Shown: in pieces, positions 539 through 42,245 of the stretch | Layout of the letters: the number at the start of each line of letters is the position of its first letter | How positions within the stretch are numbered: the first letter of the stretch is position 1 | Notes under the pieces: generated by a model | The model's database searches: none | What the model was told of the DNA's origin: nothing | Seen by the model: only the letters and a program-made list of their open reading frames with translations | Origin: Primulina eburnea | Lineage: Eukaryota > Streptophyta > Magnoliopsida > Lamiales > Gesneriaceae | DNA length: 64,000 bases | NCBI RefSeq assembly: GCF_022965805.1 | Contig: NW_027331378.1 | Coordinates: 241,970-305,969 of the forward strand | Direction: 5' to 3' | Position numbers and translations under genes: made by a program

Positions 539-540
539 AG

Positions 541-553
541 TGGTATCATGAGC
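541..553 (+). other. Co1 primer-binding site
   Basis: TGGTATCATGAGC lies two bases after the LTR end. It is the initiator-Met-tRNA complement TGGTATCAGAGC with one inserted base (T after CA), consistent with decay. Co2 has the intact form at 20159. Confidence 0.85.
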
Positions 554-2956: not shown

Positions 2957-4481
2957 TCCACGTGGAGGAAAGCGTTCTTTCTAACGTCCCAAGAAGAAAG
3001 TGCCCTTTAAGAGGCAGAATTCGAGTCATGATGTGGCAGCCACACCAGTGAAGGCTGACAAGACTGTTGACATCTGTCATCACTGCAAGAAGACTGAACA
3101 TTGCAGGCGTAACTGCAGGGAATATATTGCCCAGAAGAGTTCTGGAAACGGTATGTTCTATATTGAAGTAAACATTTCAATTAACTCTACTTCTTGGGTA
3201 TTGTATACCAGCTGTGGCTCACATCTCTGTAATGATTTGCAGATGATGGGAAGGAGTAGAAGACTTAGAGAATGTGAGAGGATGGGCAATGGAGCAAGAG
3301 TTGCTGCCAAGGCCGTAGGAGATGTTTACTTACATTTGAACAATGATTTAAAGTTAATTTTAAGAGATGTTTTGTTTGTACCAGATTTGGTGAAAAACAT
3401 TATTTCCATTTCTATGATTGATAAAGATGGATTTTCTTGTTTATTTAGCAAAGGTGTTTGCAACATTTACAAGAACGAATGTTTAATTGGTACTGGAGAA
3501 CTTGAAAACGATCTCTACACCTTAAAATTGAAAGATATTCCACTAAACAATGTCCAAGCAATAACAACAACAAATAAGCGAAAACAAGATACTCTTAATT
3601 CGGCACAATTGTGGCATGATCGATTAGGACATATTTTCCTAAGAATGATGAACAAGTTAGTGGGAGTAGGCTTGTTTGATATGTCTGATATTAACGCTCT
3701 CACGACTTGTGAATCCTGTCTAAAAGGAAAGATGACCAAAATTCCCTTTAAGGGCCATGTGGAGCAAGCCAAAGGGTTATTGGATTTGATCCATACCGAT
3801 GTGTGCGGTCCGCTTAGCAGCACCACTAAGCATGGACATGCCGACTTCATCATATTTACCGATGACTTTTCGAGGTATGGGTATGTGTATTTGATGAAAT
3901 ACAAGTCTAAAGACTTTGAAAGGTTCAAAGAATTCAGAAGTGAAGTAGAGAAACAGCTGGGACGAAGCATCAAGACACTTCGATCGGATCAAGGTGGTGA
4001 TTACTTGAGTGCCGAGTTCCAAGAGTATCTTAGGGAGAATGAGATTCTCTCGCAGTGGACTCCGCCCGCTACACCACAGTTGAATGGTGTTTCGGAGCGT
4101 CGTAACTGGACTTTGATGGACATGGTTTGGTCTATGATGGGGTTCACGGAGTTGCCGCCATCCTTTTGGGGATATGCGCTTGAGATAGCAGAACTGTTTT
4201 TGAACAATGTCCATTCAAAGACAGTTGATAAGACACCATATGAGATATGGATGTGTAAGCCTCCCAAATTTTCTTATCTTAGAATATGTGGGTGCCCTGC
4301 TTATGTGAAGCAGGTAGTGAGAGATAAATTGGATAGTCCATCCGTTTTATTTTATTTTGTGGGATATCCAAGGAATCTGTTGGATATTATTTCTATCATC
4401 CCCAAGAAACAAAGGTGTTTGTTTCTAGGAATGCAACCTTTTTGGAAAACAAATTTTTATTGGATAGAAAAGGGGAGATGA
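2957..4481 (+). pseudogene. pol: Co1 zinc knuckle, protease and integrase
   Basis: A 493-codon frame from 3000 carries three parts in order. The gag zinc knuckle is at residues 26-39 (C26, C29, H34, C39). The protease site reads WVLYTSCGSH at residues 66-75 where the family has LDTG, so the catalytic aspartate is replaced by Tyr69 and the protease is dead. The integrase zinc-binding region begins about residue 204 with LWHDRLGHI. The integrase catalytic triad is complete: D267 in HTDVCGP, D330 in RSDQGGDY and E366 in VSERRN, with the expected 35-residue spacing between D330 and E366. The frame shifts near 4377, after which the reading departs from the family. Confidence 0.9.
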
Positions 4482-4936
4482 CAGAACACGAAGAGGTTCG
4501 AGAGACACCCACAATTATAGAACCCACACCCGAAGAGCCAAGAGAGGAGATACAAGCTTCTAGAAGATCCGAGAGAGTCTCGAGACCACCTATGAGGTAT
4601 GGTCTGCTTCTTGAAGAGGGCCATGATGAGCCTAACCATGGATGTGACCAAGGACCTTCAAGGAAGCATGATCTGATGCCGATTCATCCAAGTGGCTTGA
4701 AGCAATGGATCTGAGATGAATTCCATGCATTCGAACCAAGTGTGAAATATCGTGGATCCACATGAGGGAATTGTTCCCATAGGGTGTAAATAGATTTACA
4801 AGAGGAAACTTGGGGCGGATGGGAATGTATTGACCTTCAAGGCGCGATTGGTGGCAAAAGGATATACTCAAAGACAAGGAGTTGACTTTGAGGAAATATT
4901 TTCTCCAGTTGCAATGTTCAAGCCTATAAGGATATT
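4482..4936 (+). pseudogene. pol: Co1 reverse transcriptase, N-terminal part
   Basis: Fragments in more than one frame match the integrase-RT linker (a stretch rich in E and P, with SRRSERVSRPP) and the start of Copia reverse transcriptase ([16 protein letters not shown] at about 4839, then FSPVA). Small indels and stops break the frame. The region ends abruptly at 4936, where the TG of GyA begins. The rest of the gene resumes at 33464 after GyA, with 36 bp missing compared with Co2. Confidence 0.85.
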
Positions 4937-7456
4937 TGAAACGTCTGCCCTTTTTATTGCTTTAAAAGTACTAGAATTTTTTTTTACACTCAATTTTCGG
5001 CCATATACATTTTCCAAATGAAACCCTTTTAAAATAAAATACCAACCATCTAGCATTTTAAAAATCAAGTGCAATAGCCATTAAATGAAATCGTCAACTG
5101 TTGTACCAAACCTAAAAAGAAATAATTTGAAAAGTAAAGCCCATAATAAACCTCTCAAAAATCTCTCAAAACATAAATAAATAGTCTTAAAAAAATATTT
5201 AACTCAAATCAGTAATCGTAAAACATAATGCGGAAAATAGTAGCGTTGGTCCTCGAGTTGTGTGCACGGACAGTCCAGTAGGATCATCCGTCAAGGCCTC
5301 CCTCAACCTCACCTGCATCCCTCACACCTAGTGAGTCTAAAGACTCAACACACCATAATCTTGATAACAAGTAATACGTAATACAGTCAACATATAACAG
5401 TGAAAAATACTTGTACTTAAAATATCGTTTTCATGAAGATGCATAAATTTAAGCATAAATATTTTCATTACATGTATAAATAGACCTTAATCTTTTTCCT
5501 TATCATGACATAAAAACATTTTAACATGATCATAAACATTTTCCTTTTTCCTTTTCCTTATTCCTTTTTCCTTTGTTGAATTCAGATCGTTAATTGTGAA
5601 TTTCCAGATCATGATCATAAATCGATGGATCCATCTACATGTAACCACAGTACTGGGCGGCGGGGTACACCAGCAACACTCTCACCGGTCAACTGGGCCC
5701 TGGCCTATCATTTTTCGAATAGAAATTCGATCGTCGGGGCTCCCTCTGGGGCCTTTTCCCATAAATGGGCTCCCTCTAATGCCTTTTCCCCTCACGATAT
5801 TCCCATTCTTACGGTTACCACAAAACCGTTACCACATATTCGTCATGATAGAAACACGATCGTCAGGCTCCCACTGAGACCATAACCCTCACGACGTCGC
5901 CAACATTAACGAATTAGTCACAATCACTTCACTTCCATTCAAAATTTACATTCTCATCACTTTATAAAAATCATGCATAACATAACATTTTGTTTTTTAA
6001 ACCAAGCATGCAAAATGTCTTTTAAATGTCTTCCTTGAATCATAAAAATCCCTTAGACATTTAAAAATCATAATTTAATCATGAACATTTCATAAACATT
6101 TAAAAATAATCATAATATCATAAAAATAGCATTTAGGGCACTGCCATGACGTTTACAAATTTTTAGGTGTAAAAAGACCGTTTTACCCCTGGACTTGACA
6201 TTTTACGATTTTGACGTTTTTCTTGATTTCTTGACTAAAACATGTCCCAAATAATTATTTAAGATTACATTGATTTTTCCATAATTTTATTTAGCTTAAA
6301 TATTAGACTTTTTCATTTATCTTTAATTAATTGTTTTGACGGTGTTATAATCCCGAAAAATCCCAAACTTTAATATAAAATTCCTAAATTCTAAATTTAG
6401 TCTTTTTATATTATTTTAGACCTTATGGACCACGACTCCACCCCCGTGAGCCGTTTTCCAATTTTTATTTATTTAAAAACCCTAATTGACACCTAAACTT
6501 CGACCTCGAGCCAACTTTCGATTTTCACTAGTTATCCCTTAACCATGTCGATTCAAAACTTGCCTAACATCCTAAAGTACCCTACTGGACCCTAAGTTCA
6601 CCAAGAAACCAAAGCCAAACCCAAAAACGTGGCCCCTCTAAGGACCCCCCATGCTGGCCGAGAGTTTGCTGGAGTTTGGACTCTATGATTGGTGCATTCA
6701 TGAACCCAGCCGACGACTCTAGCCACAAACTAGCGTACCTTGTGCTCATCTAAGACCCTTAACCCTCGACCTAGCCCATGCTAAGCTCCTTAAACCAACC
6801 CCTGACTACAGGCGAGCTGCTGCACACCTGCGCGCATGGGCGCGATTTCTCGGGTAGGAGTCCTAGTGGGTTAGGACTCCTCCCAGCCCTCTGGACTCGA
6901 ACCCTTACGTGGTTAGGACCCTTTCCCGGACTCAACACACCTCTGATTGAGCCTTTGCCCCAAGCCGTGGCTCCCCTGCCCTCTCTCCAAGGAACCCGAT
7001 CACCTTAACCCTTTGACAGCAGAAATCGGTTTCCCTTGATGAGTTGCTTGTTCTTGTTTCGACTTTGGTGATTAAGGTGAGTATGTTAGGACCTTAACTC
7101 ATGTATAGACACCACTGGTTCCCACCTAAGTTCGTGGCAGCCCCCTTTTTCATAAAAACTTTAAGAATTCGCATCAAAACATCATGTTTTCCTCAAGGGT
7201 GCATGCAATGATCTGAAAATACTAAAAAAATCAATCATGTTCTTCATGCATACAACAATTAAAACAATAATATGATATGATGGATGAGAAAAAGGAGATG
7301 TATGTCGTGCCTTTGCGTTAAATACGCTCGAATATCCGTTGACGACGAAGAGCGGAAGACGAATTGGCTTGTTCTTGCTAACTACCTTCGAAAAATCACC
7401 CCTAGGTTGCTATGTATAAGTGCCGTGAGGTTTGAGTGTGGGGTGGGGAGAGTTTT
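4937..7456 (-). repeat. GyA 3' LTR, part left of GyN1
   Basis: This part begins TGAAACGTCTGCC at 4937 and matches 30250-32902 of the 5' LTR. It lacks the 127-bp tandem duplication seen there. The LTR resumes after GyN1 at 15073. Together the pieces give about 3.08 kb against 3.21 kb for the 5' LTR, the difference being mostly the duplication. Open frames such as 5596-5877 and 6778-7008 have no recognisable product and I read them as LTR sequence. Confidence 0.92.
6856..6881 (-). other. Perfect hairpin inside the GyA LTR
   Basis: AGGAGTCCTA and its exact complement TAGGACTCCT are separated by six bases. The same hairpin is conserved in the other GyA LTR near 32296-32321. It could be an RNA structure in the element transcript; no function can be assigned. 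Confidence 0.6.
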
Positions 7457-9051
7457 TGTGGGGACCCGGAAGCTAATCATCTTCTTAATCATCTTTGGGA
7501 TTTAATTATAAATTAAGATAAACAGAGTCTAAAAATTTTTCTTTTTAGAATATAAGTGCGGAACGTAATAGAATTTTACTAATATACATCTCAGTATAAA
7601 AGTACAATAATGTACAACAATTATTCAAACTAATCTAAGGTTCAACTACTAAATTTCAAGTAATGAAACCTATCTACATCAAAGTCCGGAATCACCACTC
7701 TAATCTCGATCTCTCATCATCCTCTTGACCCTGATCCTGCCCCACCTGTTGCCATGCACACATACACACAAGACAACAGCCGGATAACTCCGGTGAGATA
7801 TAAATATCCCAGTATAAAAAATGTATCAATGCAATCATATAAACATATATAAAAGCATAAACAATCATTAAAAACATGTACCCAATCTGACTACATGAAT
7901 TAATACGAATCTGTATTTAAGTCAATGACTTGTTATCTTATCTCAACTTATTTCTAACCTAGGGATCCCGATCTAATTTAGACTTCGGCATGCTGTATCG
8001 AGTGTCTACAATAAAAGTCGATCTACATCTAAGCTCAACGATACACTGTAAGTCTAGAGTCTTAGCGGTTCTGACAAAGACTCGGCGGTTCTTGCCTAGC
8101 TAGATCATTACTGAATCTGATCAATCTAAATCGACTGATATTTTGACGGCATAATAATACAGTCTTGATAACCCCGTCAATCTCAAGATCACAGATATAA
8201 TACCAGAACTCATAATCAATACCGATATAACTCATAATTTCAACGATAATACAAATCTGCTATCGAATCTAAATCAAATCGATTCCGGAAATCATAACAA
8301 TTACAGAAACAATCTGTTCTTTAATCTGACTTCAGTTATACAATGCCTACTGTAGCAGAAACACCATATCTAATTCGTATTCAATTCTGACAATATCATA
8401 AATTCAAATCATATATAAACGTAACAAAACTTACGTCCAGTTACAGCCTGCGTTGATAGGAAAACAGTACTGTAATCGGATTCAAAAACAGACGGACGGA
8501 TTTCTCAAAAAAGGCGTAAGGATTTTTCACTCTTCTCTAGACGCTTTTCACCACGATTCTTTCCTTTTATTTCATAGGAAATTCAAAGGCATATATATAA
8601 ATATATATACATACCATACATGCAGCAAGGCAAGTGGCGTCGTGCATGTTCTGCACGTTGCGCGCATATGCGCCGGTAGTTCAACCAGCATCTTTTGTTG
8701 GCTCGTGCATATGCGCCATCTACGTCGCGCATATGCGCCGATCATTCTGCCCAACCCGTGCATGTGCGCCATCTACGTCACGCATATGCGCCGATCATTC
8801 TAGACGTTCCGCGCATGTGCGTGCATTCAAGTCGCGCATGTGCGCGCATGGTTCTGTCTTCTTCGCGCATGTGCGCCCAACGACGTCGCGCATGTGCGCC
8901 AATCCTACTCTTCACACATAATGTGAATTCTTCTTTCGGCTCTCCCAATCTGATCCGTTCCGTCTATAATCATATCAATTATCACCAATAGATTATAATA
9001 ATCATCGCCAAATCTTTTAAGATTAACATGATAAATTTCTCGGGCCTTACA
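7457..9051 (-). repeat. GyN1 3' LTR with internal deletion
   Basis: This 1595-bp LTR is shorter than its partner (13083-15067, 1985 bp). Most of the difference is one deletion: sequence matching 13731-14107 is missing at about 8103, with a shared AG at the break. The open frames 8453-8991 in this LTR read through the GC-rich palindrome array and are not genes. Confidence 0.92.
8660..8901 (-). repeat. GCGCATATGCGC palindrome array, GyN1 3' LTR
   Basis: About nine copies of a 12-base palindrome GCGCATATGCGC or its variant GCGCATGTGCGC are spaced irregularly by roughly 8-20 bases. The array is repeated in the 5' LTR at 14677-14917. On the element strand it lies about 150-390 bases from the LTR start, in U3, just upstream of a TATA-like run. 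Confidence 0.9.
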
Positions 9052-9066
9052 TTTCTCCTCCTCTTA
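9052..9066 (-). other. GyN1 polypurine tract
   Basis: On the minus strand a purine run (AGAGGAGGAGAAA) directly precedes the TG of the 3' LTR and follows a TTCGAGGACGAACTC phrase. GyA has a similar GAGGACGAA phrase before its purine tract. It would prime plus-strand DNA synthesis. Confidence 0.8.
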
Positions 9067-11155
9067 GATCTGAGTTCGTCCTCGAACTCGCAAGTAATCA
9101 ATTCAGATCTATCAGAAGAAATGTATACAGAGTTTAAATCAGAAACTCATCTCAATGAATCTATTCTGCAATCTCAATCTTATATTAGATTCTATCTCTC
9201 AAAATAGCTCTGACAAAGTCAATCTCGCAATACTAGTTATACAACATCCGTATATACCAAACCACAGCTCATAACAAATCACTACCATTAGCTGTTATCA
9301 AATCTATTTATCCCATTCAAGGATATATTAAATATTCAGCCTCGAATACCAATTGTCACCATCCGACGTTGTCATATTAAGTCTGTCTGGTCTGAGCTAT
9401 CTTCATTCTTTTCTGAATTAGCTACCTTTTCTTTGTCATATCTCTGACCGTATCAGATCCTATCTCAGGTATCTCCGAGATATTATTCTTATATCAAAGA
9501 AATCTGTAGTACTCACTTTACAATGTCTCGTTTGTAACTATCTCATTACTCATCTGGTAATCTGAATACCATAATTCACACCGCGACAATATGTCATATC
9601 AATCAGTGCTAGCATCCAGCACTGCAGTTCCCTGGATATCTTCCAACATCTGGATAGTATCCTCTGGCTATCTGTCAGTCGGTGGATAACATAGGAATGA
9701 GTTCATGGTATGTTCTGCCACAAATACAAACTCCAGCAAAATCATAATCTGATATATTATTCTACTTCGGCATTCTAGTTATTATGACCACTTTTCTGAC
9801 ATCAATCTGTGTCATTTGGTCATGTTTGTACGTTATCTGGTACAAACTATAGATATAGATTGAACAATCTGTCAATCACAATCATATCATATCACAATCT
9901 GGAAAGTATTACAATGATCTCATTACGAAATTCATGGAAATATACTCTCCATGTCTAGTCAGAAATATACAAATTCTGTAATAGAATCTTCTAATTTCTA
10001 TCTTTCTGTCCTCATTTATTGACAATTCAGACATATCAGTTCAAATTCTGCCAACATTTCAGTATAATTCTATCATAACTGATTTAATCTGTCTATATCA
10101 AAACTATCTGTTAGAATTATCATACACGTTCGGTTACCAAAATGAAAACTGAATCTACTACTGTGTATTTCTGACACTATCTGTCATTTCAAATTCGAAC
10201 TATTGGGTACAGACAATCAGTTAGCAATATAAATTAAAGAAAAATACCTACCTGGTATTCGGTTCTGAATATCGATATCAAATTCTGTTATACAATTCTG
10301 AAACATTTGACATCACAAGATAATCATTCTCATACAGTAAAAATCACATATCTGTAACTCTGATCGATGCTCTGCTCTGATTATCGAAACTAAGTTCTGA
10401 ACATTCTGGTTAAATCTTTGAACTGCCATAATTCTCGAATTCAGCTCTGATTCGGTTTGAATAATCTGTATCAAACACTGACTCAGAATAACGGTACTAT
10501 CAAACCAGATTCACCATATCCATAATCTATACTGATCTAATGAGTCCAGTAAACTCATAAAACGGCAATCTCTGGCAATACTGTCAATTCTAATTAGTCA
10601 ATCATGTCTTCATGTCGTTTTGATCAACTGCTATATCTCATCTGCAAATATAATATGCCCCCAAACAATATAAGCTGCCTCAAATACTGTTTTACAACAA
10701 TAACAAGTCTCAAGCAGATACAAAACAACAATCGTATAAGATAATCTGCCAATTCAGACAAAAATAAATTTCTGACATTTCTGAAATTTTCTGATATTTC
10801 TGATATTTCTGATATCAGTATCATTCTCAGTCACTGATCATGATCTCAACTGTGTCAAAATCAATCGGTATTCTAACTTTAGATATCACATACTCTGAAT
10901 ACAATCTGTTTCAAGCAGGATTCATATCTGAATAATTTCTGTATACAATAATCACAGTTCTCAGAGTATTCAATACAATCTTCAGATATTCGATTCAATC
11001 AATCAGATGCTGCAAATATATCAAAATCTCATAGATACAACGAGCATGAAATCATCAGAATATCTCTAAACATACTGAAACATGCCAAAGAGAAACACTA
11101 AATCAGATGTAACTCCCGGTCGATACTCTTCTACCGATCTTTCACTTCTTTCAAT
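9067..11155 (-). pseudogene. pol: GyN1 decayed pol (RT to integrase), no open frame
   Basis: There is no usable frame here, but the sequence is not random. Read on the minus strand, 9798-9843 aligns with GyE integrase at 61671-61717 (the [10 protein letters not shown] region), and the same stretch in GyN2 is at 39008-39053 with the same substitutions. Compared with GyE several hundred bases of RT/RNase H are missing. The composition is AT-rich, and in the part I aligned many changes are G-to-A on the element strand. I read this as a pol that decayed in a common ancestor of GyN1 and GyN2 and was then copied as ballast. Confidence 0.75.
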
Positions 11156-11799
11156 TCATTTTGTATCATTCTGTACATTTAATATCATTCTGTACTGAAT
11201 TCTGATAAAACAAATAGTACCTGATCTCAATTCGATTTTGAAATCTATCTTTCTGATATAAAGCAAATCTGAAATCTTATCTGGGCAACCATCAGCCAAC
11301 TCGTACATAATTGGCAAATCTGCCAATGCTAGGCTCGATTTCAGTACATCTACTGAATACATAAGGATAACATATGCTCCTTTCTGTATCAATCGAGTCA
11401 TAGACAATACATATATCAAAGGAATTCTAAATCTAGAATTCTTATTGTAGAATTCCTACTCATCAGCCTTATCTGGTCTGAATCTTATCTTTTCTGAAAG
11501 AAATCTACAATAGTTCTGTACTTGTTCAGCATATTAATATTTATAATGAAATCAAATCAGAAGACACAAGCACATCATAATCTAACTCGATCTCATTCTC
11601 ATCTTACTGTAGTATACAATATGTCACAAAAATCTCTGATATCAATCTTTCTTTCCCAAAAGGTACAAAGATTAATACTACAGCAATATAGACCCAACAA
11701 ATACCATATATATCAATGCAACTCAGTCAAAGATAATCATAAGAAATGCATTAGTATATATCAATACATATGCAACATAATCATAAAAGAACAGTACCT
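11156..11799 (-). pseudogene. pol: GyN1 protease / RT-linker remnant
   Basis: An 87-codon frame (11156-11419) contains MYSVDVLKSSLALADLP and a diverged version of the [20 protein letters not shown] segment that links protease to RT in GyE (near 59680-59815). The protease core that should lie at 11420-11799 is not recognisable. The equivalent frame in GyN2 (40335-40541) carries many of the same substitutions, including the same odd reading after the linker. Confidence 0.8.
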
Positions 11800-12777
11800 G
11801 CCACTATATCATCAAGTGCCTCTTGGGTCTGTTCCTCGGTCACTACCACCAGATGGTCCCGCTCCCTGACATCTGTGGGAACCTCTCTGTGGACAGACTC
11901 TAGCAAAGTGTCCCGGCTGTCGGCAGATACGATAACTACCAGTAACTCCCTGGCATTGCTCCGTGGAATGTCTTCCTCCGCAAGTTCTGCAATACACTCC
12001 AGTTTAACTCGGGCTAGAACCACTGGAGCTAGATGAACCGCTCAGTCCGCTCCCTAACTTCTTAAACTGTTTCTTTCAAGCTTTCAGCAAATCTTGCTTT
12101 CCACTCGTACTGCCGCGATCAAATCGGAGAGGGGATTGCTGTGTCTGGGGTTGCATCGCACACACCCTTTTTAGTTGTCTAATCAGACTTGCCTCCGCTC
12201 TCTTTGCTCTACTCAAAGCATCAGCAAAATGATAAGGTCGCTGTATATTCATCAATGAAACTATCTCGGAATTCAATCCTCTGATGAACTGATCCGCTAC
12301 AGCTACATCATTCCCCATTACGTGAGGAGCAAAACGCAGTAGAGTAGAGAATTTAGCAACATATCCTTCAATATTCAGTTGACCTTGTCTCAAATTCTCA
12401 ATTCTGCTTTCTTGTCCTCTCGGTACAAAACTGAGAAAAATTTTCGATAAAATTCAATTCTAAATATTTCCCACGAAATCACTGTACCTCTCTGTTCTAA
12501 CATTCTTTTACTTGTAATCCACCAACTCCTGGCGGCTTCTCGTAACTGGTTAGGCACCATTTTAACTCTCTGTTCATCTGTACAATCAGAAAATCGAACA
12601 GTATTTCTATGTCATCAAACCAGTTCTCACAATCTTCAGACGCCTCGGTACCACTCAGGATCGACGGCTGAAATAACTGAAACTCTTTCAACTTTATTTC
12701 CATCTGAGTTTCTGATACATCTGTCTGTTCAGTCGAAGTACTACCTCTTTCTGGAATTCTCCGTGGTGGTATATCTG
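11800..12777 (-). pseudogene. gag: GyN1 gag, frameshifted
   Basis: Three consecutive frames on the minus strand match GyE and GyN2 gag: 12497-12703 (MEIKLKEFQLFQPSILSGTE), 12076-12393 (RQGQLNIEGYVAKFSTLLRF) and 11812-11997 (zinc-binding tail). At least two frameshifts separate them. The tail keeps an HSTEQCQG segment, but the first cysteine of the CX2C knuckle is Tyr. The expected start ATG before PPRR is ATA, as in GyN2, so translation would have to begin at an inner ATG. It is the broken counterpart of the intact GyN2 gag. Confidence 0.87.
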
Positions 12778-13065
12778 CTTATCAAAACATTAGTACCCAA
12801 ATACTACAAATCTGTTCAAATCTTTCTCTGATCATCTTACTGCTGATCAAGAATCAAATCTGATTCATACTCAATAATACATATTACCAATTCAAATCAG
12901 ATAATCACGTGATCATGTATTTCAAAATAGTAAAACATAATCTCATGCTAGCATATTCAATGTAAGTCAACATTAAAATAAATCTCAGGCTAGCAATCAC
13001 ATGCAAGGTAAGAAAACTCAATCTACCCCGCTCCTTCTCTTCTATCTCAGTCTAAAGAATCTATC

Positions 13066-13079
13066 GCTCTGATACCACC
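13066..13079 (-). other. GyN1 primer-binding site
   Basis: On the minus strand GGTGGTATCAGAGC follows the 5' LTR after three bases. It matches the 3' end complement of initiator Met tRNA. Confidence 0.9.
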
Positions 13080-14594
13080 TGTTGTGGGGACCCGGACGCT
13101 AATCATCTTCTTAATCATTTTTGGGATTTAGTTATCAATTAAGATAAACAGGGTCTAAAAATTTTTCTTTTTAGAATATAAGTGCGGAACGTAATGGAAT
13201 TTAACTAATATACATCTCAGTATAAAAGTACAATAATGTACAACAATTATTCAAACTAATCTAAGGTTCAACTACTAAATTTCAAGTAATGAAACCTATC
13301 TACATCAAAGTCCGGAATCACCACTCTAATCTCGATCTCTCATCATCTTCTTGACCCTGATCCTGCCCCACCTGTTGCCATGCACACATAAAGACAAGAC
13401 AACAGTCGGATAACTCCGGTGAGATATAAATATCCTAATATAAACAATGTATCAATGCAATCATATAAAACATATATAAAAGCATAAACAATCATTAAAA
13501 ACATGTACCCAATCTGACTACATGAATTAATACGAATCTGTATTTAAGTCAATGACTTGTTATCTTATCTCAACTTATTTCTAACCTAGGGATCCCGATC
13601 TAATTTAGACTTCGGCATGCTGTATCGAGTGTCTACAATAGAAGTCGATCTACATCTAAGCTCATTGATACACTGTAAGTCTAGAGTCTTAGCGGTTCTG
13701 ACAAAGACTCGGCGGTTCTTGCCTAGCTAGGCTGATCTGTCCTAGACTCAAACTCTTGCTCTGCTATAATTCAATAAGCTAAACATATCAATCTGATAAT
13801 TTGCAAATGTCAATGCAATGAAATAAAGTATGTGATTTAGGAAACTCAAGTCAAACCTAACTCGAGTTGTGCAATCCCGAATCAACATTTATTTATACCT
13901 TTGTCTTCCCGGACTGACGAAGACGAAGTCGTGTATTCTGATCTGTCCATACCCAGTCTGGCAATGACAATCGTATAAATACAATATCAGTATATAACTC
14001 AATTCAATATCTGTTCTGAACAATATTCAAATCGAAATATATAATCTGATCCATATCTGAACAAAGTACAATCTAATTCATATCAACGATATCACGATAT
14101 AATCGAGATCATTACTGAATCTGATCCATCTAAATCGACTGATATTTTGACGGCATAATAATATAGTCTTGATAACCCCGTCAATCTCAACATCATAGGT
14201 ATAATACCAGAACTCATAATCAATACCGGTATAACTGATAATTTCAACGATAATACAAATCTGCTATTGAATCTCAATCACATCGATTCTGGAAATCATA
14301 ACAATTACAGAAACAGTCTGTTCTTTAATCTGACTTCAGTTATACAATGCCTACTGTAGCAGAAACACCATATCTAATTCGTATTCAATTCTGACAATAT
14401 CATAAATTCAAATCATGTCTAAACGTAACAAAATTTACGTCCAGTTATAGCCTGCGTTGATAGGAACACAGTACTGTAATCGGATTCAAAAACAGACGGA
14501 CGGATTTCTCACAAAAGGCGTAAGGATTTTTCACTCTTCTCTAGACGCTTTTCACCACGATTCTTTTCTTTTATTTCATAGGAAATTCGAAGGC

Positions 14595-14613
14595 ATTTAT
14601 ATAAATATATATA
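14595..14613 (-). promoter_or_regulatory. TATA-like run of the GyN1 5' LTR
   Basis: The minus strand reads TATATATATTTATATAAAT about 65 bases downstream of the palindrome array, after a GCATGTATGG stretch. GyN2 has a similar TATATATATATA run at the same relative place (37838-37853). It is the best candidate for the element promoter; the start site cannot be seen. Confidence 0.5.
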
Positions 14614-14676
14614 CATACCATACATGCAGCAAGGCAAGTGGCGTCGTGCATGTTCTGCACGTTGCGCGCACAAAGT

Positions 14677-14917
14677 CGCGCATATGCGCCGGTAGTTCAA
14701 CCAGCATATTTTGTTGGCCCGAGCATATGCGCCATCTACGTCGCGCATATGCGCCGATCATTCTGCCCAACCCGCGCATGTGCGCCATCTACGTCGCGCA
14801 TATGTGCCGATCATTCTGGACGTTCCGCGCATGTGCACGCATTCAAGTCGCGCATGTGCGCGCATGGTTCTGTCTTCTTCGCGCATGTGCGCCCAACGAC
14901 GTCGCGCATGTGCGCCA
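14677..14917 (-). repeat. GCGCATATGCGC palindrome array, GyN1 5' LTR
   Basis: Nine units occur, at about 14677, 14720, 14741, 14772, 14793, 14825, 14849, 14880 and 14902. The left units have CATATG at the centre and the right units CATGTG. Both are CANNTG boxes flanked by GCG and CGC. Spacers vary in length and sequence; TTCTGGACGTT is one spacer shared with other families. Confidence 0.92.
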
Positions 14918-15067
14918 ATCCTACTCTTCACACATAATGTGAATTCTTCATTCGGCTCTCCCAATCTGATCCGTTCCGTCTATAATCATATCAATTATCA
15001 CCAATAGATTATAATAATCATCGCCAAATCTTTTCAGATTAACAGGATAAATTTCTCGGACCTTACA

Positions 15068-15635
15068 GTTTTCAAAATTTAGGAGAGAGTGGCCGATTGT
15101 TTATGGTGTGGAGTGTAGGGTTTAATACATATTATATACTAATTAGTCACTAACTAGGCCTTATGCCTATTAAGCCATTAAATTAGGCCCATAGTCTAAT
15201 TAGGACATAATTAAGATATTAGCAAAGTTTTTCTTTAATTAAATATGTGAATTTATTAGCCGGTTTGCCAAGAAGCTCGTATTTTAGTTGAAAAACCCAT
15301 ACCGATAAAACTTACGCCCCTGGCAGTATAAAATCACCCCAAAACCATTTATTTTAAAAAGTACTAAAAAGCATCGACCATATTTCAAATAATTAAAATA
15401 ATTATTTAATAAATTGTTTATAGATTTTTAAGCCCTATGTCCCTGTTCCTCGATCGTCGCTTGAATATTCCTTAAAAATATCATTTTTTGCATGATGACA
15501 ATAAAAATCTCATTTAACATATAAACAAGTATGTCACATAGTTAATTAGCAATTAAAATCAATTAATTACTCAATTTTAATATTTCTTAGATTTGCATGC
15601 AGTTGGATTACGTCGTCTTAATTTTGGACCTTACA
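15068..15635 (-). repeat. GyA 3' LTR, part right of GyN1
   Basis: After the second TSD copy (15068-15072) the GyA LTR resumes and ends TTACA at 15635. On the element strand the LTR starts TGTAAGGTCC. It matches 32903-33463 of the 5' LTR. Confidence 0.92.
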
Positions 15636-15651
15636 ATTCCTCCCCCCTTAA
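15636..15651 (-). other. GyA polypurine tract
   Basis: On the minus strand TTAAGGGGGGAGGAAT directly precedes the TGTAAGG start of the 3' LTR and follows TTTCGAGGACGAAATTT, as in many plant chromoviruses. Confidence 0.88.
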
Positions 15652-16977: not shown

Positions 16978-18027
16978 TCAAAGTCGTCTGTACTGATAAT
17001 GTGGCAAGATTAGGGGCATCTCTCTAGCATACACTGTAAGATCAAACCGCTGTATCTCGGACTGCAACGGTCTTTGGAGTGATAAATGAATGATAACTGA
17101 TGCTTTTCTACTCAATGCGTCTGCCACTACATTAGCTTTCCCCGGATGGTAGCTAATGTCACAATCATAGTCCTTTACCAATTCAAGCCATCTGCGCTGT
17201 CTCATATTCAACTCCTTTTGGGTGAAGAAGTATTTCAAACTCTTATGATCGGTGAATATCTTACACTTCTCCCCATAAAGGTAATGTCTCCAAATTTTTA
17301 GTGCAAAGACTACTGCTGCAAGCTCAAGATCATGAGTAGGGTAGTTGTTTTCGTGAATTTTAAACTGTCTTGACGCATAAGCGATAACTCGGTCATTTTG
17401 CATCAGAACTGTGCCCATACCAAGGTTAGAAGCGTCGGTATAAAGGACATACTCCCCTTGCCCTGATGGCATAGATAACACTGGTGCTGATATCAAGGCT
17501 TGCTTTAACTTGCCAAAACTGTCTTGACACTCGGGTCCCCAAACAAATTTTGCATTCTTCTTAGTCAAGGCGGTCATAGGTACCGCTATAGATGGTAACC
17601 CTTGAATAAACTTGCGATAATAGCCAGCTAGTCCACAGAAACTACGAATCTCGGTGATGCTTTTCAGTACTGGCCATTCTTTCACTGCTTCCACTTTACT
17701 TGGATCAACGTCCACTCCATTACTGGAAATGATGTGGCCTAAGAATGCCACTCTATCAAGCCAAAACTCGCACTTACTGAATTTTGCATAAAGTTTTTTG
17801 TCTTGCAGTGCGGTCCTCAAATGACGGCTATGCTCGTCTCTGCTCTTGGAATAGATAAAAATGTCATCAATGAAGACAATAATAAACTGATCCAGATACG
17901 GCTGAAATACGCGTTTCATGAGATCCATGAAGATCGCTGGCGCATTGGTCAACCCCAATGGCATGACCATAAAATCATAGTGCCCATATCTCGTGCGAAA
18001 TGCTGTCTTGTGAACATCTGACTCTTT
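16978..18027 (-). pseudogene. pol: GyA reverse transcriptase (C-terminal part) and RNase H
   Basis: A continuous minus-strand frame carries the RT fingers/palm ([19 protein letters not shown]), the catalytic FIDD at about 17863-17874, the thumb, and RNase H ([34 protein letters not shown]). At 18027 the frame runs into the Co2 LTR; the N-terminal part of the RT continues at 27327. Apart from the insertion this is the best-kept piece of GyA. Confidence 0.92.
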
Positions 18028-20156
18028 TGTTAGAGTAGGTGCCCGTCGAGCCAAGTGTTGGCCGAGTGTTCACAATGAAACTCTATGTATAAGCAATCTT
18101 TATTTTAGTAATATTTGATATTATTATTTTGGCACATCTTTATCTGTATACCCATGCTAGTTGCATAGATAAAGCCCTTGAATATACAAATGGTAGAAAA
18201 AATATGAGATGCTCATATGATGGGTATCATGAAACTCATATTTGTAATACTGTATATTCTAAACGGTTCCTAGTCGATTCAGCCGCCACTAAGAAGGATA
18301 TAGGCCGCTCGAGTTCGAGACTAGTATCTGCGATGTGAGTACCATGTTTCATTGGTAGGGGACATTGTGATGTCCGAGCATGCAGATAGGTGCTCCTAGT
18401 AGAGTGCACTGAACAACCCTCCATTAAAGGACTTTCCAAGTGGTTCTCACTTATCGAGTGGAAGTGTCCTAGTTTATGGTTGTACACCATTAGTCCTTAT
18501 GACCCGAGACAACATTGAGACTCTTTGTGCTAGCATTTTACTTTGACTTGTTTACCGACTCTTATGGGGTCATCAGGTGGCAAGGTTGGGTGTCATGTCG
18601 AAACATATAGGAGTCGATGCATTGTAGTCGGGGATTCACCGCTTACCTTCGGGTATGGATATCCTATGTGTTATCATGTGTATGTAGGTTGAAATCTCTG
18701 GCCAGAGTATGGTTGTAATTATGAAAGGGGTTTCATAGATTACACCATTGATGCAACTACGACATGACACATAGTATTTATTCATTGACAACTCTCGATA
18801 AACCAATGGTTGTCGAATCGGTCGGGATATATAAGTTGAAGGGACCGTACTGTACGCTAACCATAATTGAATGGTTCTTGCAGGCACTATCATTTGATAC
18901 CTAGGGAATCATGTAAGCGATGCTGCTAGGCGTTTAACATGATTGGTTGGGTACTATCAGACTTGAGTTCTGACGTTCTTGTTATCAAGGAGTTGATAAG
19001 TAAGAATGGAGCAATTGGGGTATGCTCATATAAGGAAATGTTTAATCCGAATCACATGGAGATGTGAACCCACGGCTAGTTGTATCAATGAACCATTGAG
19101 AGCCACACAAGTACTAGCTTTCTAGATCCCGTTGAGAAGTAAAATAGTTCAATGTGTTGAACGGCTTATAAAGGAGTTTATAAGCGTAAGGAAAATTAGA
19201 AGTATGACTTCTATAAAGGAGAAAATAGTTCAATGTGTTGAACGGCTTATAAATGTGTTTATAAGCGTAAAGAAAAATAGAAGTATGACTTCTATGAGAG
19301 AAATGTAAATTTTGATTTATGGAAGTGTTCCTAAATTAAAATTTGGCCAAGTGAATAATGTATTTGAAAATTGTGATTTTCATATACATTATTATGGACT
19401 AAATTAAATTAATTCAAGTGTTGAATTAATTAAACACTAGTGGACCTAGTAGAGTCCAAATAATTAAATTAATTCAAGTGTTGAATTAATTAAGTTATAT
19501 TGAGTCTTGTAGAGCTCAATTTAAATTAATTATTTAACTAGTGGGACTTGGGTAAATTCAAGTAATGTTTAATTAGTCTCAAATATGTTTGAGATAATTA
19601 AATTTAGTCCATGGTTTTTAATTTGTTAAAAACCATATAATATGCATGCATGGGAGGTGAAAGGTTGGGAGACTACTTTTTGAGTTTTCAAGGCATGGCA
19701 TGCAAAAAGTGATTTCAACTTTTTCCACTACCTAGACAAGTCTCCCTTCCCTCATTCAAGAACCATGGCCGAACTCTCCCCCTAAAATTCTCTTCAAGAT
19801 TTTTCTCTCTTTTGTTCTTCAATTGTTGGAGAAACAAAATACTTCTCTTTGAAAAATCCTCTAATTTTTCTAGTGCAAAATTAGAGGGGATCTTCCTAGT
19901 TAGTGGTGGGCCTAATTTTGAAGAAAGGAGGAAGCTTGTAGATTTATCTTCCATTGAAGAGCTAAGGTGTTTACACCTTAGTTGGAGCTATACATCAATC
20001 CTTGTGATTGATAGGTACATTTCTCAAACACCCTATGTATGACATGTGTTTGTTTTTGTATTTGCTACACAAAAGAGGTGGCCGAATTTCTTGCATGAAA
20101 AATTAAAATTTTTGACTTCCGTTGCGCTTCCGGTCACCGTGACCGATCCCCTTTCA
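18028..20156 (+). repeat. Co2 5' LTR
   Basis: It begins TGTTAGAGTAGGTGC and ends CCCCTTTCA before the primer-binding site. It contains two copies of an 81-bp unit (19141-19302) and several AT-rich repeats around AATTCAAGTGTTGAATTAAT (19410-19490), which are themselves dyad-symmetric. Short frames such as 18129-18338 recur in all copies of the LTR and have no recognisable product. Confidence 0.94.
19141..19302 (+). repeat. 81-bp tandem duplication in the Co2 LTR
   Basis: AAAATAGTTCAATGTGTTGA recurs at 19141 and 19222. Both Co2 LTRs carry two units (second LTR near 26310-26470), while the Co1 3' LTR has a single unit near 35786. The duplication therefore marks a subfamily younger than the split from Co1. 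Confidence 0.88.
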
Positions 20157-20158
20157 AG

Positions 20159-20170
20159 TGGTATCAGAGC
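20159..20170 (+). other. Co2 primer-binding site
   Basis: TGGTATCAGAGC, complementary to initiator Met tRNA, lies two bases after the LTR. Confidence 0.92.
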
Positions 20171-21945
20171 TATGGTTATGGTTTTGTGTAGCAACTACAA
20201 GATATTATATTGAGATTGATTTCTAACCGCATGAGGATGAAATTTTGCAACAAAATTCAAGGTTTGATAGAGCATATTTCGGGCAGCATGTTGCTGCCTG
20301 TTTCGGGTAGCCCGGGCAGCCAGAGGGGCTACCCATTTTGGGCAGCTAGGGCAGTCCCTCAGCCCCATCAATTTTATAAAAAAAAAATAAAAATTTTGTT
20401 GCCGGAATCCGGTGACGGAGCTCCGGCGACAGCGATGACGACTAGGGTTTCAAAAAGTGTTTTGGATTATCAAAGTGTCCTGGGCCTTGAGTTGTTGGGC
20501 CATTGGATGGCTAACATATTTGTGAATTTTAAATGGGCCAAAATGTTTTTGGTGAAAAATAAGTTTTTGGGCCCTTAAGTTTAAAATTACAAAAGTTGCA
20601 AATTTTTCTCATGAAATAAATAATTGAAGTTGGACTTTAATTATTTATAGTAAATTGTGATTTATAAGAAATTCGGTTATAAATAAATTAATTGGAAAGT
20701 AGACAAAGGTGTTTGTATACTTTGTTAATTTAGTTTATAATCGTGGCGGTTAGTGATTGGATCAAGATATATAATATTGGATCAATTAATTATTGTGATA
20801 ATTAATTGATGGTGTATGATATGTGATATTATGCATGAAGGATGATCAAAAGCCCAAGCCCAATTTGCTAGGTGTATTCGAGGATATTTTGTGTTGAATG
20901 ATTGTAATAATTATCAATTTATAAAGTGGGCTTGGTTTATGGCCCGTTCCCACCCCATGAGATGTATCCCTATTTGCCATGGATATTTAATAGTATAGTG
21001 ATGATCAAGATTGGAAGATGGTGGCCATGATGATTATGAAGATCGAAGACATGTAAATATTGGAAGCTTATGTAATAGTTGCATTTGCATCCCGTGCATT
21101 TCCCTAGGATTGGAGCTAGGTCCGTGTTTAGCTCACACGATCCGTTAGTATTGGGGCGATTGATCATCCTTGTTTGTTTACTGTTTATAATATATGCATG
21201 ATATGTTATAAATAATGAGTATGTGCGTTATTATTATTATAATAACAAAGTTGCATGAATCCGGCAAACATACGATCAAACATGGCGAGCTTTTAAAATA
21301 AAATTAATGATGAGACCTTTCAAAATTAAAAAAACCCTCATTTTGAATAAGATTCAAAATTAATATCAAGCCTGAAATGGGGAATTATAAATTTGTTTAT
21401 AATTTCCTTGTCTTCCATCGACAATGGGTGCATGATGAACGCTACCCGTACTCAGGGCTCGGCTCATATTATTGGGGGAGCTCTGGGTGCCGGAAAGCTG
21501 TGACATCCATTGACATAGTGATGTGAACTACGTGGAACTCCCATGATTTCGGCTTCATATTATTGGGGGAACTCATGGCGACCGTCCATTAAGGTTCAAC
21601 ATCGATGGGTAAGGCTTGACACGTGAAGATGAACGACGTCATATTATTGGGTCCTAATCAAACGTGAGACAAAAGTTTACGTAGAGGGTTGCATTGTGAT
21701 GCAATTGGAAACTACCTATTAGGAATTGTGATTGGCTGATATTATTCGAGATCATAATTCGCTAATTGGACCTTACGTACCTACTGAGGAAAGGAGTTTC
21801 CCGTTTTCACTAGAGGGTAGTGAAAGATGTCAAAACAGTGGGAGCAAATATTTATGAAGTAAAAGTCCAAACTTCATATCTTACTAAATATTTTAAAATA
21901 GTCAGCCAACATTTATCTGTTTTCATTTTTCAGTACAAATTGACA
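20171..21945 (+). other. Co2 long untranslated leader with GC palindrome cluster
   Basis: It is equivalent to 554-2305 of Co1. The cluster at 20278-20365 has GGGCAGC, GCTGCC, CCCGGGCAGCC and GGGCTACCC, a diverged form of the Co1 cluster. The frame 20210-20578 crosses the cluster but ends without a recognisable domain, so I do not call it a gene. Confidence 0.78.
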
Positions 21946-22862
21946 ATGTCTTCGATTCGCAATCCGATATCCATAATACTCGACACACACATATTAAATG
22001 GACCTAATTACCTCACTTGGCTAAGAAACCTGAAAATCGTCTTGAATTCGGAAAGGGTAGCATATACACTGACTGAGTCGCCCCCTGTTGAGGCTCCGAC
22101 TGACTTGCAATCCTGAAGAATTGCAGGCTTACAAGGAATGGTGTGACCATGACTTGATAGCCAGGTGTTATATGCTGACTTCTATGAATGATGAGCTGCA
22201 GAGGCGTTTTGAAGATGCAAAGAATGCTGCTGACATTCATATGCACCTCAAAGAGCTCTTTGGTGAGCAAACACGGCCTCTTAGGCATGCTACCGTCAAG
22301 GAGCTGATCACTATGCGCATGCGAGATGGGGCCTCGGTTCATGAGCATGGCCTGAAGTTGATTGGGCTCGTGGATAAGCTCGTTGGCATGGATATGATCT
22401 TGCCTTCGGAGTTGACCACCGACGTGTTGCTGTTATCATTGCCTAGCTCATTTGATCCTTTTGTGGTGAACTTCAACATGAACAAGATGGAGCCGACCCT
22501 TGAGGAGTTGGTGAATATGCTTGTTACGTTGAATCAACCATCAAGAAAGAGAAGTTGGTTCTTTATGTGGGTTCTTCATCTGGTACGAAGATTGATCCAC
22601 ATGGGAAGGGAAAGAAGAGTTCTTTCCAACGTCCCAAGAAGAACGTGCCCTTGATGAGGCAATCTCCGAATCCCGTTGTGGCAGCCACACCAGTTAGGGA
22701 TGACAAGACTAGTAATGTTTGTCATCACTGCAAGAAGCCTGGACATTGGAGGCGTAATTGCAAAGAATATCTTGCCCAGAAAAGTTCTGGAAATGGTATG
22801 TTCTACATTGAAGTAAACATTTCAGTTAACTCTACTTCTTGGGTATTGGATACCAAATGTTG
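21946..22862 (+). pseudogene. gag: Co2 gag and zinc knuckle, frameshifted
   Basis: Gag starts at the ATG of MSSIRNPISIILD. A frameshift near 22105 moves it into the frame of 22088-22654, and a second near 22530 into the frame of 22555-22863. The capsid motif LLLSLPSSFDPFV and the knuckle CHHCKKPGHWRRNC (complete CCHC) are present. The last frame reaches the protease aspartate in WVLDTKC and then a TGA at about 22861. Confidence 0.88.
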
Positions 22863-23460
22863 ATCACATCTCTGTAATGTGTTACAGGTGATGGGAAGAA
22901 GTAGGAGACTAAGGGAAGGTAAGACCTTCTTGAGGATAGGCAATGGAGCAAGAGTTGCTGCCAAGACCTTAAGAAATGTTTACTTATTGTTGAACAATGA
23001 TTTTAAGTTAATTTTTAAGAGATGTTTTGTTTGTACCTTTTTGGTGAAAAACATTATTTCCATTTCTATTGTGATAAAGATGGATATTCTTGTCTATTTA
23101 GCAAAGGTGTTTACAACATTTACAAGAATGAATGTTTAATTGGTACTTGAGAACTTGAAAACGATCTCTATAACTTAAAATTGAAAGATATTCCATTAAA
23201 TGTCCATTCAAAGGCAGACACCATATGAGATATGGATGGGTAAGCCTCCCAAATATTCTTGTCTTAGAATATGGGGAGCCCTGCTTATGTGAAGCAGGTA
23301 GTGGGAGATAAATTGGATAGTCGATCCATTTTATGTTACTTTGTAAGATATCCAAGGAATTCAGTTGGATATCATTTATATCATCCCCAAGAAACAAAGG
23401 TGTTTGTTTCTAGGAATGCAACCTTTTTTTTGGAAAAAGGAATTTATATTGGATAGAAAA
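22863..23460 (+). pseudogene. pol: Co2 protease tail and remnant of integrase around a deletion
   Basis: The protease continues as GRSRRLREGKTFLRIGNGARV in a shifted frame. At about 23200 the sequence jumps from the segment matching 3540-3550 of Co1 to that matching 4208 onward. The integrase zinc region and the whole D,D,E core are missing, roughly 660 bp. In Co1 the two break regions both contain AACAATGTCCA, so the deletion probably used this microhomology. What follows is only the last part of integrase (TPYEIWMGKPPK-like, then the linker). Confidence 0.87.
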
Positions 23461-24600
23461 GGCGAGATGATAGAACTCTAAGAGGTTCGAGAGACACCCA
23501 CAATTATAGAACCCACAGCCGAAGAGCCAAGAGAGGAGATACAAGCTCCTAGAAGATCCGAGAGAGTCTCGAGACCACCTATGAGGTATGGTCAGCTTCT
23601 TGAAGAGGGCCATGATGAGCCTAACCATGGATGTTATCCATGGACCTTCAAAGAAGCGTTATCTGATGCCGATTCATCCAAATGGCTTGAAGCTATGGAA
23701 TCTGAGATGAATTCCATGCATTCGAACCAAGTGTGGGATCTTATAGATCCACCCGAGGGAACGGTTCCCATAGGGACTTGGGGCGGATGGGAAGGTATTG
23801 ACCTTCAAGGCGCGATTGGTGGCAAAAGGATATACTCAAATACAAGGAGTTGACTTTGAGGAAACCTTTTGACCAGCTGCAATGTTCAAGTCTATAAGGA
23901 TATTGCTAGCCATAGCTGCATGGTATGACTATGAGATATGACAGATGGATGTTAAGATAGCCTTTCTTAATGTGGATATTAAGGAAGAGATTTACATGTC
24001 TCAACCTGAAGGGTTTACATCTATTGAAAGTGAGCATATGGTATGCAAACTTCAGAGATCTATTTATGGTCTGAAGCAGGCATCTGGGAGTTGGAACCTC
24101 AGATTCGATAGTACAATCAAAGAGTTTGATTTACTAAGAATCCTGAGGAACCCTGTGTGTATAAGAAGGTCAGTGGGAGTGTTGTGACATTCCTGGTGCT
24201 TTTTGTTGATGACATTCTACTCATTGGGAATGATGTAGGAATGTTGCAATCAACTAAGATATGGTTAGCGAGTAAGTTCTCGATGCAGGACTTGGGTGAA
24301 GCATCTTTTGTATTGGGATACAGATCTATAGAGATAGATCGAAAAGATTGCTTGGTCTCACCCAGTCCACATACATTGATACCATCGTGAAGCGGTTCTC
24401 GATGGATAAGTCCAAGAGAGGACATCTACCAATGTGTCATGGCGTGTCCCTATCCAAGTCTGTCTTTCAAGACTGATGCAGAGATAGCGGCGATGACAAA
24501 GCATTCCTTATGCATCTACGATTGGTAGCATCATGTATGAGATGATATCTACACGTCCTGACGTGGTTTTCGCACTAAGTGTAGTGAGTAGATATCAATC
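23461..24600 (+). pseudogene. pol: Co2 reverse transcriptase, frameshifted
   Basis: Fragments cover the linker (RRSERVSRPPMRYGQLL), the RT start (SKWLEAMESEMNSMHSNQVW), the palm (QMDVKIAFLNVDIKEEIYM, 23945) and the catalytic FVDD in VLFVDDILLIGND at about 24200. A 23-bp deletion near 23777 relative to Co1 and single-base shifts near 24130, 24370, 24450 and 24500 break the frame. Unlike Co1, the catalytic aspartates are still there. Confidence 0.87.
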
Positions 24601-25137
24601 GAACCTGGTCTTCCACACCTGAAAGTTGTGAAAGACATCCTCAAGTATTTGAGAAGGACCAATAAATTGTTCTTGGTCTATGGGGGTGGAGAACTGAAAT
24701 TGGAAGGCTATACCGACTCTAGCTTCCAAAGCGATATCGATGACTCGAAGTCAACCTCTAGGTTTGTATTCATGCTCAATGGTGCTGCTGTCTCGTGGAA
24801 GAGTTCCAAGCAAGACAATACTGCGGATTCCAGCACAGAGGCCGAATACATTGATGCATCAGATGCAGCAAGTGAGGCTGTTTGGATAAGGAATTTCGTC
24901 TAAGAGTTGGACGTCATTCCTAATGGAGTTGCTCCTATCCCGGTGTTGTGTGACAGCACGGGAGCTTTCGCTCAAGCAAAGGAGCCAAGGTCTCATCAGA
25001 AGTCCAAACAAGTATTGAGAAAGTACCACATCCTCGGAGAGAGTGTGGAAAGAGAAGTGTCTATCGACAAAGTCGGCTCCGCAGATAATGTTGTTGATCC
25101 ACTTGCTAAGCCTTTACCTGGACCATTATTCGACTAG
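24601..25137 (+). pseudogene. pol: Co2 RNase H
   Basis: Two frames, 24628-24903 and 24907-25137, are divided by one TAA just after VWIRNFV. Motifs are LEGYTDSSFQSD, SWKSSKQDNTADSSTEAEYI, and KEPRSHQKSKQVLRKYH, the usual Copia RNase H. The end matches the Co1 C-terminus. Confidence 0.88.
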
Positions 25138-25185
25138 CATCGCGAATCAATGGGTTTAAAGCATATGGGTAGTTGGCTCTAGTGC

Positions 25186-25195
25186 AAGTGGGAGA
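25186..25195 (+). other. Co2 polypurine tract
   Basis: AAGTGGGAGA lies one base before the TG of the 3' LTR. Confidence 0.88.
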
Positions 25196-25196
25196 T

Positions 25197-34662: not shown

Positions 34663-34663
34663 C

Positions 34664-34673
34664 AAGTGGGAGA
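34664..34673 (+). other. Co1 polypurine tract
   Basis: AAGTGGGAGA precedes the 3' LTR TG by one base, identical to Co2. Confidence 0.88.
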
Positions 34674-34674
34674 T

Positions 34675-36807: not shown

Positions 36808-36861
36808 GAATAAGACGATCTATCACCTACTCTCCAATCGGGGTGACGGTACGTCTTATTC
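36808..36861 (-). other. Conserved 10-bp stem structure in the GyN2 LTR
   Basis: GAATAAGACG and its exact complement CGTCTTATTC flank a 34-base loop. The second GyN2 LTR has it too (near 42898-42951), and GyE has the same stem at 57254-57308 with a different loop. The conservation between families suggests a structured RNA; the role is unknown. Confidence 0.65.
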
Positions 36862-40960: not shown

Positions 40961-40981
40961 TTCTCAATTAAACGATGTTCT

Positions 40982-42242: not shown

Positions 42243-42245
42243 TGT

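Follow-up and report, generated by a model that had tools for sequence, protein, structure and literature searches.

GC-rich near-palindrome arrays in Ty3-type LTRs of Primulina eburnea as candidate promoter cassettes exchanged between families

Array-bearing LTRs in the window

We analysed a 64,000-nucleotide stretch of Primulina eburnea DNA (contig NW_027331378.1, positions 241,970 to 305,969), hereafter the window, which consists of nested long terminal repeat (LTR) retrotransposons in plant DNA. Seven Ty3-type LTRs from four families, termed N, C, D and E, each carry an array of 7-12 GC-rich near-palindromes (units were chosen by eye, and the counts include degenerate ones). Judged from sequence, a role of the array as a promoter-proximal enhancer cassette in Ty3 LTR retrotransposons, likely read by dimeric host factors, seems rather probable.

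The N family is represented by two minus-strand elements of Ty3 type, N1 and N2, which are inserted into older elements and have 5-bp target duplications and related empty sites. N1 has its 3' LTR at 7457-9051 (1595 bp) and its 5' LTR at 13083-15067 (1985 bp), with a primer-binding site at 13066-13077 and the duplication GTTTT at 7452-7456 and 15068-15072. In N2, the 3' LTR lies at 36156-38367 and the 5' LTR at 42246-44459, with the primer-binding site at 42229-42240 and the duplication GAGAC at 36151-36155 and 44460-44464. The other three families have a single LTR copy each in the window: C on the minus strand (49814-50702), and D (52850-54454, primer-binding site 54460-54471) and E (56036-57837) on the plus strand. 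Their bounds were set from the TG/CA ends and the primer-binding site, the only evidence for C, and for E also from homology of its 3' half to the N LTRs. Behind the N2, D and E LTRs lie gag or pol domains of Ty3 type; no coding body was assigned to C.

The arrays share the strands of their LTRs. Both N1 LTRs hold 9 units of CGCATATGCG/CGCACATGCG (8663-8898 in the 3' LTR, 14679-14914 in the 5' LTR), and both N2 LTRs hold 12 (37908-38226 and 44000-44318). The C array (50280-50436) has 7 units, mostly CGCCCGAGCG, and its doublets carry inverted inner flanks (GCGGT...ACCGC). The homologous D (53062-53284) and E (56138-56361) arrays have 8 units of CGCACCCGCG each. Computed from unit and LTR coordinates, the distance between the LTR start and the core units spans 103-460 bp across the seven arrays. 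The first-pass annotation, which was placed on the N1 5' LTR alone, had given matching unit numbers and a distance of about 100-460 bases, and it had asked whether most family members might lack arrays; both LTRs of N1 and of N2 have them.

Such units are far more frequent than expected from dinucleotide-shuffled sequence. With up to one mismatch, GCGCATRTGCGC gave 78 rows on both strands (shuffle mean 0.14), where most sites are counted twice since the motif is a near-palindrome. With up to two mismatches, ACCGCACCCGCGGT gave 16 matches (mean 0.07), and the C-motif pattern gave 13 rows (mean 2.2), 9 of them inside the C array. The AT-rich surroundings described earlier were also borne out, with a GC content of 0.52-0.61 in the arrays vs 0.34-0.38 in the remaining LTR.

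A common unit of two half-sites

All three motif classes in the window fit CGC-N4-GCG, with a family-specific N4 that reads, on the window plus strand, ATAT/ATGT, ACCC, or TCGG/TAGA. The earlier statement that each family has its own motif thus holds for N4, while the frame around it is common to all. Strict CGCN4GCG occurs 49 times in the window (shuffle mean 2.2), and 46 of these matches lie inside the seven arrays, with some in each. When gaps from 0 to 15 were compared, the gap of 4 gave the most matches (49), followed by gaps of 6 (39), 10 (14), 8 (7) and 11 (6), and the rest gave at most 3. The N motif itself produces a gap of 6, which explains the 33 gap-6 matches in the N arrays.

Pairing and probable helical phasing of units

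The units stand in doublets, mostly 22-23 bp apart, and this pairing is firm. Successive spacings are 23, 31, 23, 31, 22, 31, 22 and 43 bp in the N1 5' LTR; 23, 31, 22, 31, 22, 42, 22, 31, 22, 41 and 22 in the N2 5' LTR; 22, 20, 30, 22, 31 and 22 in C; 24, 51, 23, 18, 23, 52 and 22 in D; and 23, 51, 23, 19, 23, 53 and 22 in E. In N1 and C, a gap of about 22 bp is mostly followed by one of about 31 bp, and N2 adds steps of 41-42. Taken over these five arrays, 22 of 39 neighbouring intervals measure 20-24 bp; between D and E, none of the seven intervals differs by more than 1 bp.

The same pairing recurs genome-wide (812 Mb, 1,224 contigs). Exact pairs, counted as lower bounds at places that belong to repeated families and are not independent events, number at least 51,139 at 22 bp (mirror-pattern control 651) and at least 45,219 at 23 bp (control 3,316). 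Other distances gave at least 880 pairs at 17 bp (control 193), 1,137 at 21 bp (control 54) and 2,939 at 24 bp (control 304). Any factor reading these pairs would meet very many sites, with the 22-bp and 23-bp distances together contributing at least 96,358 exact pairs, many of them within one array.

Steps from doublet to doublet are mostly 42-43, 52-54, 63-64 or 71-75 bp, and helical phasing is likely. Among periods from 8 to 14, the best lies at 10.4-10.7 in each of the five window arrays. None of 20,000 random-gap sets reached the combined value; taken alone, C was matched in 20 of 10,000 and D in 157 of 10,000. Strict window units gave a best period of 10.6, near the turn of the DNA helix, among periods from 6 to 30 (0 of 5,000 jittered sets), and doublet midpoints, window included, gave 10.5 (0 of 1,000 jittered sets), with 9.0 close behind. 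Outside the window, 14 arrays were compared with 1,000 random-gap sets, none of which reached the value near 10.6; this array set excluded loci L001-L003 and L047, arrays with fewer than four strict units, and 11 of 32 arrays with duplicate or nested interval lists.

Conservation of units and changes after insertion

Units are better conserved than the spacers between them: identities are 92% vs 68% between D and E, 95% vs 78% between the N1 and N2 5' LTRs, and 89% vs 76% between their 3' LTRs. These figures bear on neutral tandem amplification, by which slippage and unequal exchange in reverse transcription would multiply a functionless GC-rich word. The N arrays contain duplicated blocks of 53 and 117 bp, and the related N1 and N2 LTRs differ in unit number, both as this process would predict. 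Conserved units do not follow from it, nor do half-sites, a gap of 4 and pairing common to several motif classes, nor D and E spacings that match so closely despite diverged spacers, nor a position before TATA kept in 8 of 12 loci. We regard a purely neutral origin as very unlikely.

Array CpG content is high, with observed/expected ratios of 1.14-1.62. CpG density peaks at the arrays, which make up seven of the eight window places with at least 18 CpG per 200 bp. The eighth, at 62151-62450, lies directly past the primer site at 62117. Since insertion, CpG sites have changed at 5 of 78 array positions vs 5 of 82 elsewhere in the LTR for N1, and at 6 of 82 vs 3 of 92 for N2. Non-CpG array sites changed at 4 of 191 (N1) and 3 of 269 (N2), so that array CpG sites changed about 3-7 times more often; all of these are small numbers. 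From both comparisons the inserted copies look methylated, and because array CpG sites changed no less than CpG sites elsewhere, the units are not protected there. The tidiness of the units mirrors their state at insertion.

The array might instead act as a CpG island, either shielding the promoter from methylation or attracting methyl-CpG readers, with its letters mattering only as carriers of CpG. Such a role would account for this density and has a printed parallel in the CpG islands of Del LTRs (PMC4029996). The apparent methylation of inserted copies argues against it, and a pure CpG role requires neither the gap of 4 nor the 22-23-bp pairing. We judge this explanation improbable.

Exchange of arrays between LTR bodies

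The E array aligns with the D array (72% over 246 bp), and at E 0.1 the D and E LTRs show no similarity beyond this zone. It is the N LTRs that align, at about 64%, with the 3' half of the E LTR. Compared in register, D and E spacers resemble each other (0 of 5,000 shuffles). N and C arrays have a common inter-pair spacer (CCAGAATG-like) in register (0-1 of 20,000 shuffles), a register picked after the match was seen, and the intra-pair control was negative (12,820 of 20,000). The spacer motif is possibly a second binding site within the array. N and C LTRs have no match at E 0.1. Free local alignment with units masked was not significant for D and E (score 17 vs a null maximum of 22), and for N and C it gave 23 vs 22 with N1 and 16 vs 21 with N2, both in AT-rich sequence outside the arrays. 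Our conclusions on spacers rest on the in-register comparison, not on the free alignments.

Further exchange was seen among 20 genome loci (named with L and a number), where D-type arrays occupy 13 distinct places, of which some are probably paired LTRs of a single element. Six of the 13 (L004, L005, L009, L017, L018 and L021) are followed by a body that resembles N (70-79%) more than E (60-66%). Among the remainder, bodies are E-like in L010 and L012, D-like in L006, L008 and L011, none of these in L015 and ambiguous in L020. At L049, a C-type array stands ahead of an N-like body (89% over 307 bases). In six of the seven exchanged loci, N similarity begins no more than about 50 bp from the TATA run; in the seventh, L009, it begins about 107 bp past the start of the run. 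As a separate observation, L017 carries a D-type and an N-type array (1502-1723 and 2759-3021) 1 kb apart.

The distance from array to TATA is also steady. Twelve oriented loci were examined, L049 and 11 of the 13 D-type places; in eight of them the TATA run starts 49-52 bp past the array, for D-type and C-type arrays alike. Within the window, the TATA-like run proposed earlier was found in N1 and N2 only: at 14595-14613 in the N1 5' LTR, 66 bp past the last unit, and at 43927-43945 in the N2 5' LTR, 55 bp past it, both on the minus strand.

Judged from these alignments, families have exchanged the array as a whole, in the manner of a cassette. The swapping of array types between LTR bodies supports the earlier proposal that the array is a modular part of the promoter, and it suggests a swappable on-switch.

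The exchange also bears on the possibility that the array works as folded RNA or DNA, with hairpins in transcripts that cross U3 giving rise to small RNAs and silencing, or serving RNA packaging or 3'-end formation. Against 60 dinucleotide shuffles each, folding of the arrays was more stable in 8 of 10 strand tests (z <= -2.1), most strongly in N2 and C. Many of the C-type doublets listed are 12-bp inverted repeats around 8 bases, and maize Sireviruses are reported to show a small-RNA excess at palindrome clusters (Bousios 2016, as cited in passages of PMC10760457 and PMC5311732). Set against this, D has hardly any structure (z -2.1 and -1.1), D-type units share one orientation, and the steady TATA distance and the exchange near the TATA run are signs at the DNA level. 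Silencing, moreover, would be a cost and gives no reason for keeping the array. We consider a role through folding unlikely.

Arrays elsewhere in the genome

As an out-of-sample check, we inspected twenty 10-kb pieces evenly spaced over 1.0-3.86 Mb of contig C1. One array-bearing element, L041, was present, and it has the predicted pairing, with spacings of 22, 50, 22, 51 and 22 bp in both LTRs. Its LTR pair is 99.5% identical over 1,298 bp with the target duplication TGTTC, its N4 is CCCA/TAGG/CCTA, and its TATA box lies 45 bp past the array. The primer site, which differs from that of the window array LTRs, starts TGGCGCCGTTGCC, a sequence typical of Athila-type Ty3 elements. A Pfam search with its long open frame returned no family. 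L044 shares part of the L041 LTR (78.6% over 459), yet has C-type units. L046, chosen from the listing of 21-bp pairs, has another N4 set and spacings of 22, 31, 21, 31, 22 and 31 bp. A different, non-doublet type was seen at L047 (950-1040), where GC-rich interleaved palindromes (CGCGCTAGCGCAGGCG) lie near TGGTATCGGAGCC; it recurs on C1 among the matches listed.

The first-pass annotation had also raised the case of the same arrays being common as simple satellites outside LTRs. Within the window, 46 of the 49 strict units lie in LTR arrays. Among 74 D-type places drawn from 100 listed genome matches, 38 have a near-identical partner on the same strand at a distance of 2-15 kb, the arrangement expected of LTR pairs (1.3 on average and at most 8 in shuffles), which disfavours the satellite explanation for these 38; the other 36 were left unassigned.

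Proposed mechanism

We favour an enhancer cassette because a position before TATA, a steady array-TATA distance, two-turn pairing and exchange as a block are all expected of one; folding, a CpG island and neutral amplification each leave at least one of these four unexplained. A protein-binding platform is plausible in view of the pairing, the approximate helical phasing and the steady distance to TATA. A dimeric host transcription factor would sit on each unit and contact the two CGC half-sites. In a doublet, two dimers would face roughly the same side of the helix, two turns apart, and could bind cooperatively, with N4 and the outer bases determining which factor binds. The bound array would then drive transcription from the TATA box.

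A family could change its promoter type by gaining the U3 of another. If two RNAs were co-packaged, the first strand transfer, by way of a shared region near TATA/R, might jump to the 3' end of the other family. Such an intermolecular transfer would join the R-U5 of one family to the U3 of another, and a junction near TATA fits this within tens of bases.

More broadly, and as a tentative proposal that we hold to be somewhat doubtful, at least two primer-site classes of Ty3 elements in this genome may share a motif-independent promoter grammar. It would comprise CGC-N4-GCG dimer sites, doublets two helical turns apart, a steady TATA distance and N4 as an exchangeable key. Whole cassettes would be traded by recombination near TATA/R and a new N4 would spread through the array until all units match, perhaps giving access to a different host factor or an escape from a sequence-specific silencer.

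Several observations weigh against the enhancer reading and its parts. N4 is constant within a family (ACCC in 16 of 16 D and E units), which recent duplication could explain without selection. Outside the window, a period of 23.5 outscores 10.6 (49.7 vs 46.5), and 9 of the 14 arrays are D-type relatives; for these two reasons we regard the support for helical phasing as moderate. Doublet steps of 66-67 bp do not fit such phasing either. L018 and L021 are near-identical where exchange was scored, and sites of repeated families are not independent. L006, L008, L010 and L011 have no TATA run within 140 bp of the array, and no TATA consensus was found past the window arrays of C, D and E. Lastly, the window has nine exact TGGTATCAGAGC primer sites: an array LTR borders five of them, and the other four (20159, 30236, 48237 and 62117) have no array upstream, so the array is not essential to an LTR. 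These four belong to one copia LTR, one Ty3-type LTR of about 3.2 kb (near 30250-33464) and two more.

If the enhancer reading is right, a sequence rule could be used to spot LTR promoters across families, and promoter cassettes would move between retrotransposon families independently of their bodies. The recurrence of palindromic CpG arrays in plant LTRs would also become testable through a dimeric host factor, the half-site CGC and a spacing rule.

Relation to known LTR arrays

The first-pass annotation knew of no description of such a shared design. The kind is in fact already known, since Sirevirus repeated motifs and Del 5' CpG islands are in print (PMC2829016 and PMC4029996). Sirevirus LTRs are described as having many palindromic CpG-rich units, mostly starting 200-400 bp past the LTR start and forming a CpG island just upstream of the TATA box, on average by 37 bp (PMC2829016). 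The motif varies by element, with a core signature kept in 12 of 13, and a function is only proposed; Bousios et al. 2010 term the motifs Sirevirus-specific (PMC2829016). The arrays described here are likewise near-palindromic, with at least 8 units in N1, N2, D and E (7 in C), lie in the upper half of the LTR and form a CpG island. The likeness is partial for TATA, which follows shortly past the array in N1, N2, L041 and 8 of the 12 loci but not in C, D, E and the other 4. Sireviruses are Ty1/copia elements with a CGG-CCG core, in contrast to the Ty3 elements with CGC-N4-GCG here, and only 3 of 30 window matches to CGG-N0..8-CCG begin inside an array (C, D and E hold one apiece). The Sirevirus sections consulted mention neither pairing nor spacing nor exchange (PMC2829016).

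Del elements, which are Ty3 chromoviruses, have plastic 5' CpG islands in monocot LTRs and none in the sampled eudicot cluster (Cruz et al. 2014, PMC4029996). The arrays resemble these islands as CpG-rich, variable-length stretches in the 5' part of long Ty3 LTRs, where we measured CpG density directly, a different measure from the published island software. They differ from that eudicot cluster in having such a stretch. The main text of PMC4029996 contains no word beginning with palindrom, tandem or hairpin and no 'inverted repeat'. Tomato Rider has a CGCG box and a CpG-island-like U3 whose GC-rich box can be lost as a block; it differs in having a single box and no array, as far as described in the sections consulted (PMC6762207).

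In our searches of the open-licence literature, neither the CGC-N4-GCG rule nor the 22-23-bp pairing nor an exchange of arrays among Ty3 families came up, nor did helical phasing of such arrays or, in the papers searched, the letters of the three motifs. The tobacco element Tnt1 has short tandem boxes in U3 upstream of TATA, and its subfamilies differ in U3; it resembles the arrays in this placement and differs as a Ty1/copia element with few copies. Its U3 tandem repeats are mentioned in PMC3601003.

Other features of the window

The E gag-pol frames (58003-61983, plus strand) encode capsid, protease, reverse transcriptase, RNase H and part of integrase. Among 120 of 7,984 relatives listed, the reverse transcriptase region is closest to a Dorcoceras hygrometricum protein (P0060, 90% identity), and the others reach at most 77%, which points to a probable lamiid eudicot host. 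Del/Tekay chromoviruses combine long LTRs with a Ty3 gag-pol that includes a chromodomain. E has the Ty3 domains, and its frame stops before the place of a chromodomain; a relative, P0112 (75% identical), has a chromodomain match below the Pfam cut-off (E 7e-5).

Scans for array pieces in viral and bacterial contigs gave one match in a GC-rich contig of a viral collection and two in high-GC bacterial contigs, with none in a third scan, and we judged these to be chance; a pol-based scan of viral contigs gave nothing.

The Ty3-type LTR of about 3.2 kb occurs twice without an array, at 30250-33464 (primer site 30236) and at 4937-15637, one copy split by N1. Inside the former, at 30295-30548, a 127-bp unit is present twice at 99% identity. 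A 74-bp repeat stands three times at 49543-49764, beside the C LTR primer site. Related copia-type elements lie at 18027-27326, 1-5000 and 30483-45024, and the LTR pair of one (18027-20156/25196-27326) has AT-rich repeats of about 80 bp in place of GC-rich arrays.
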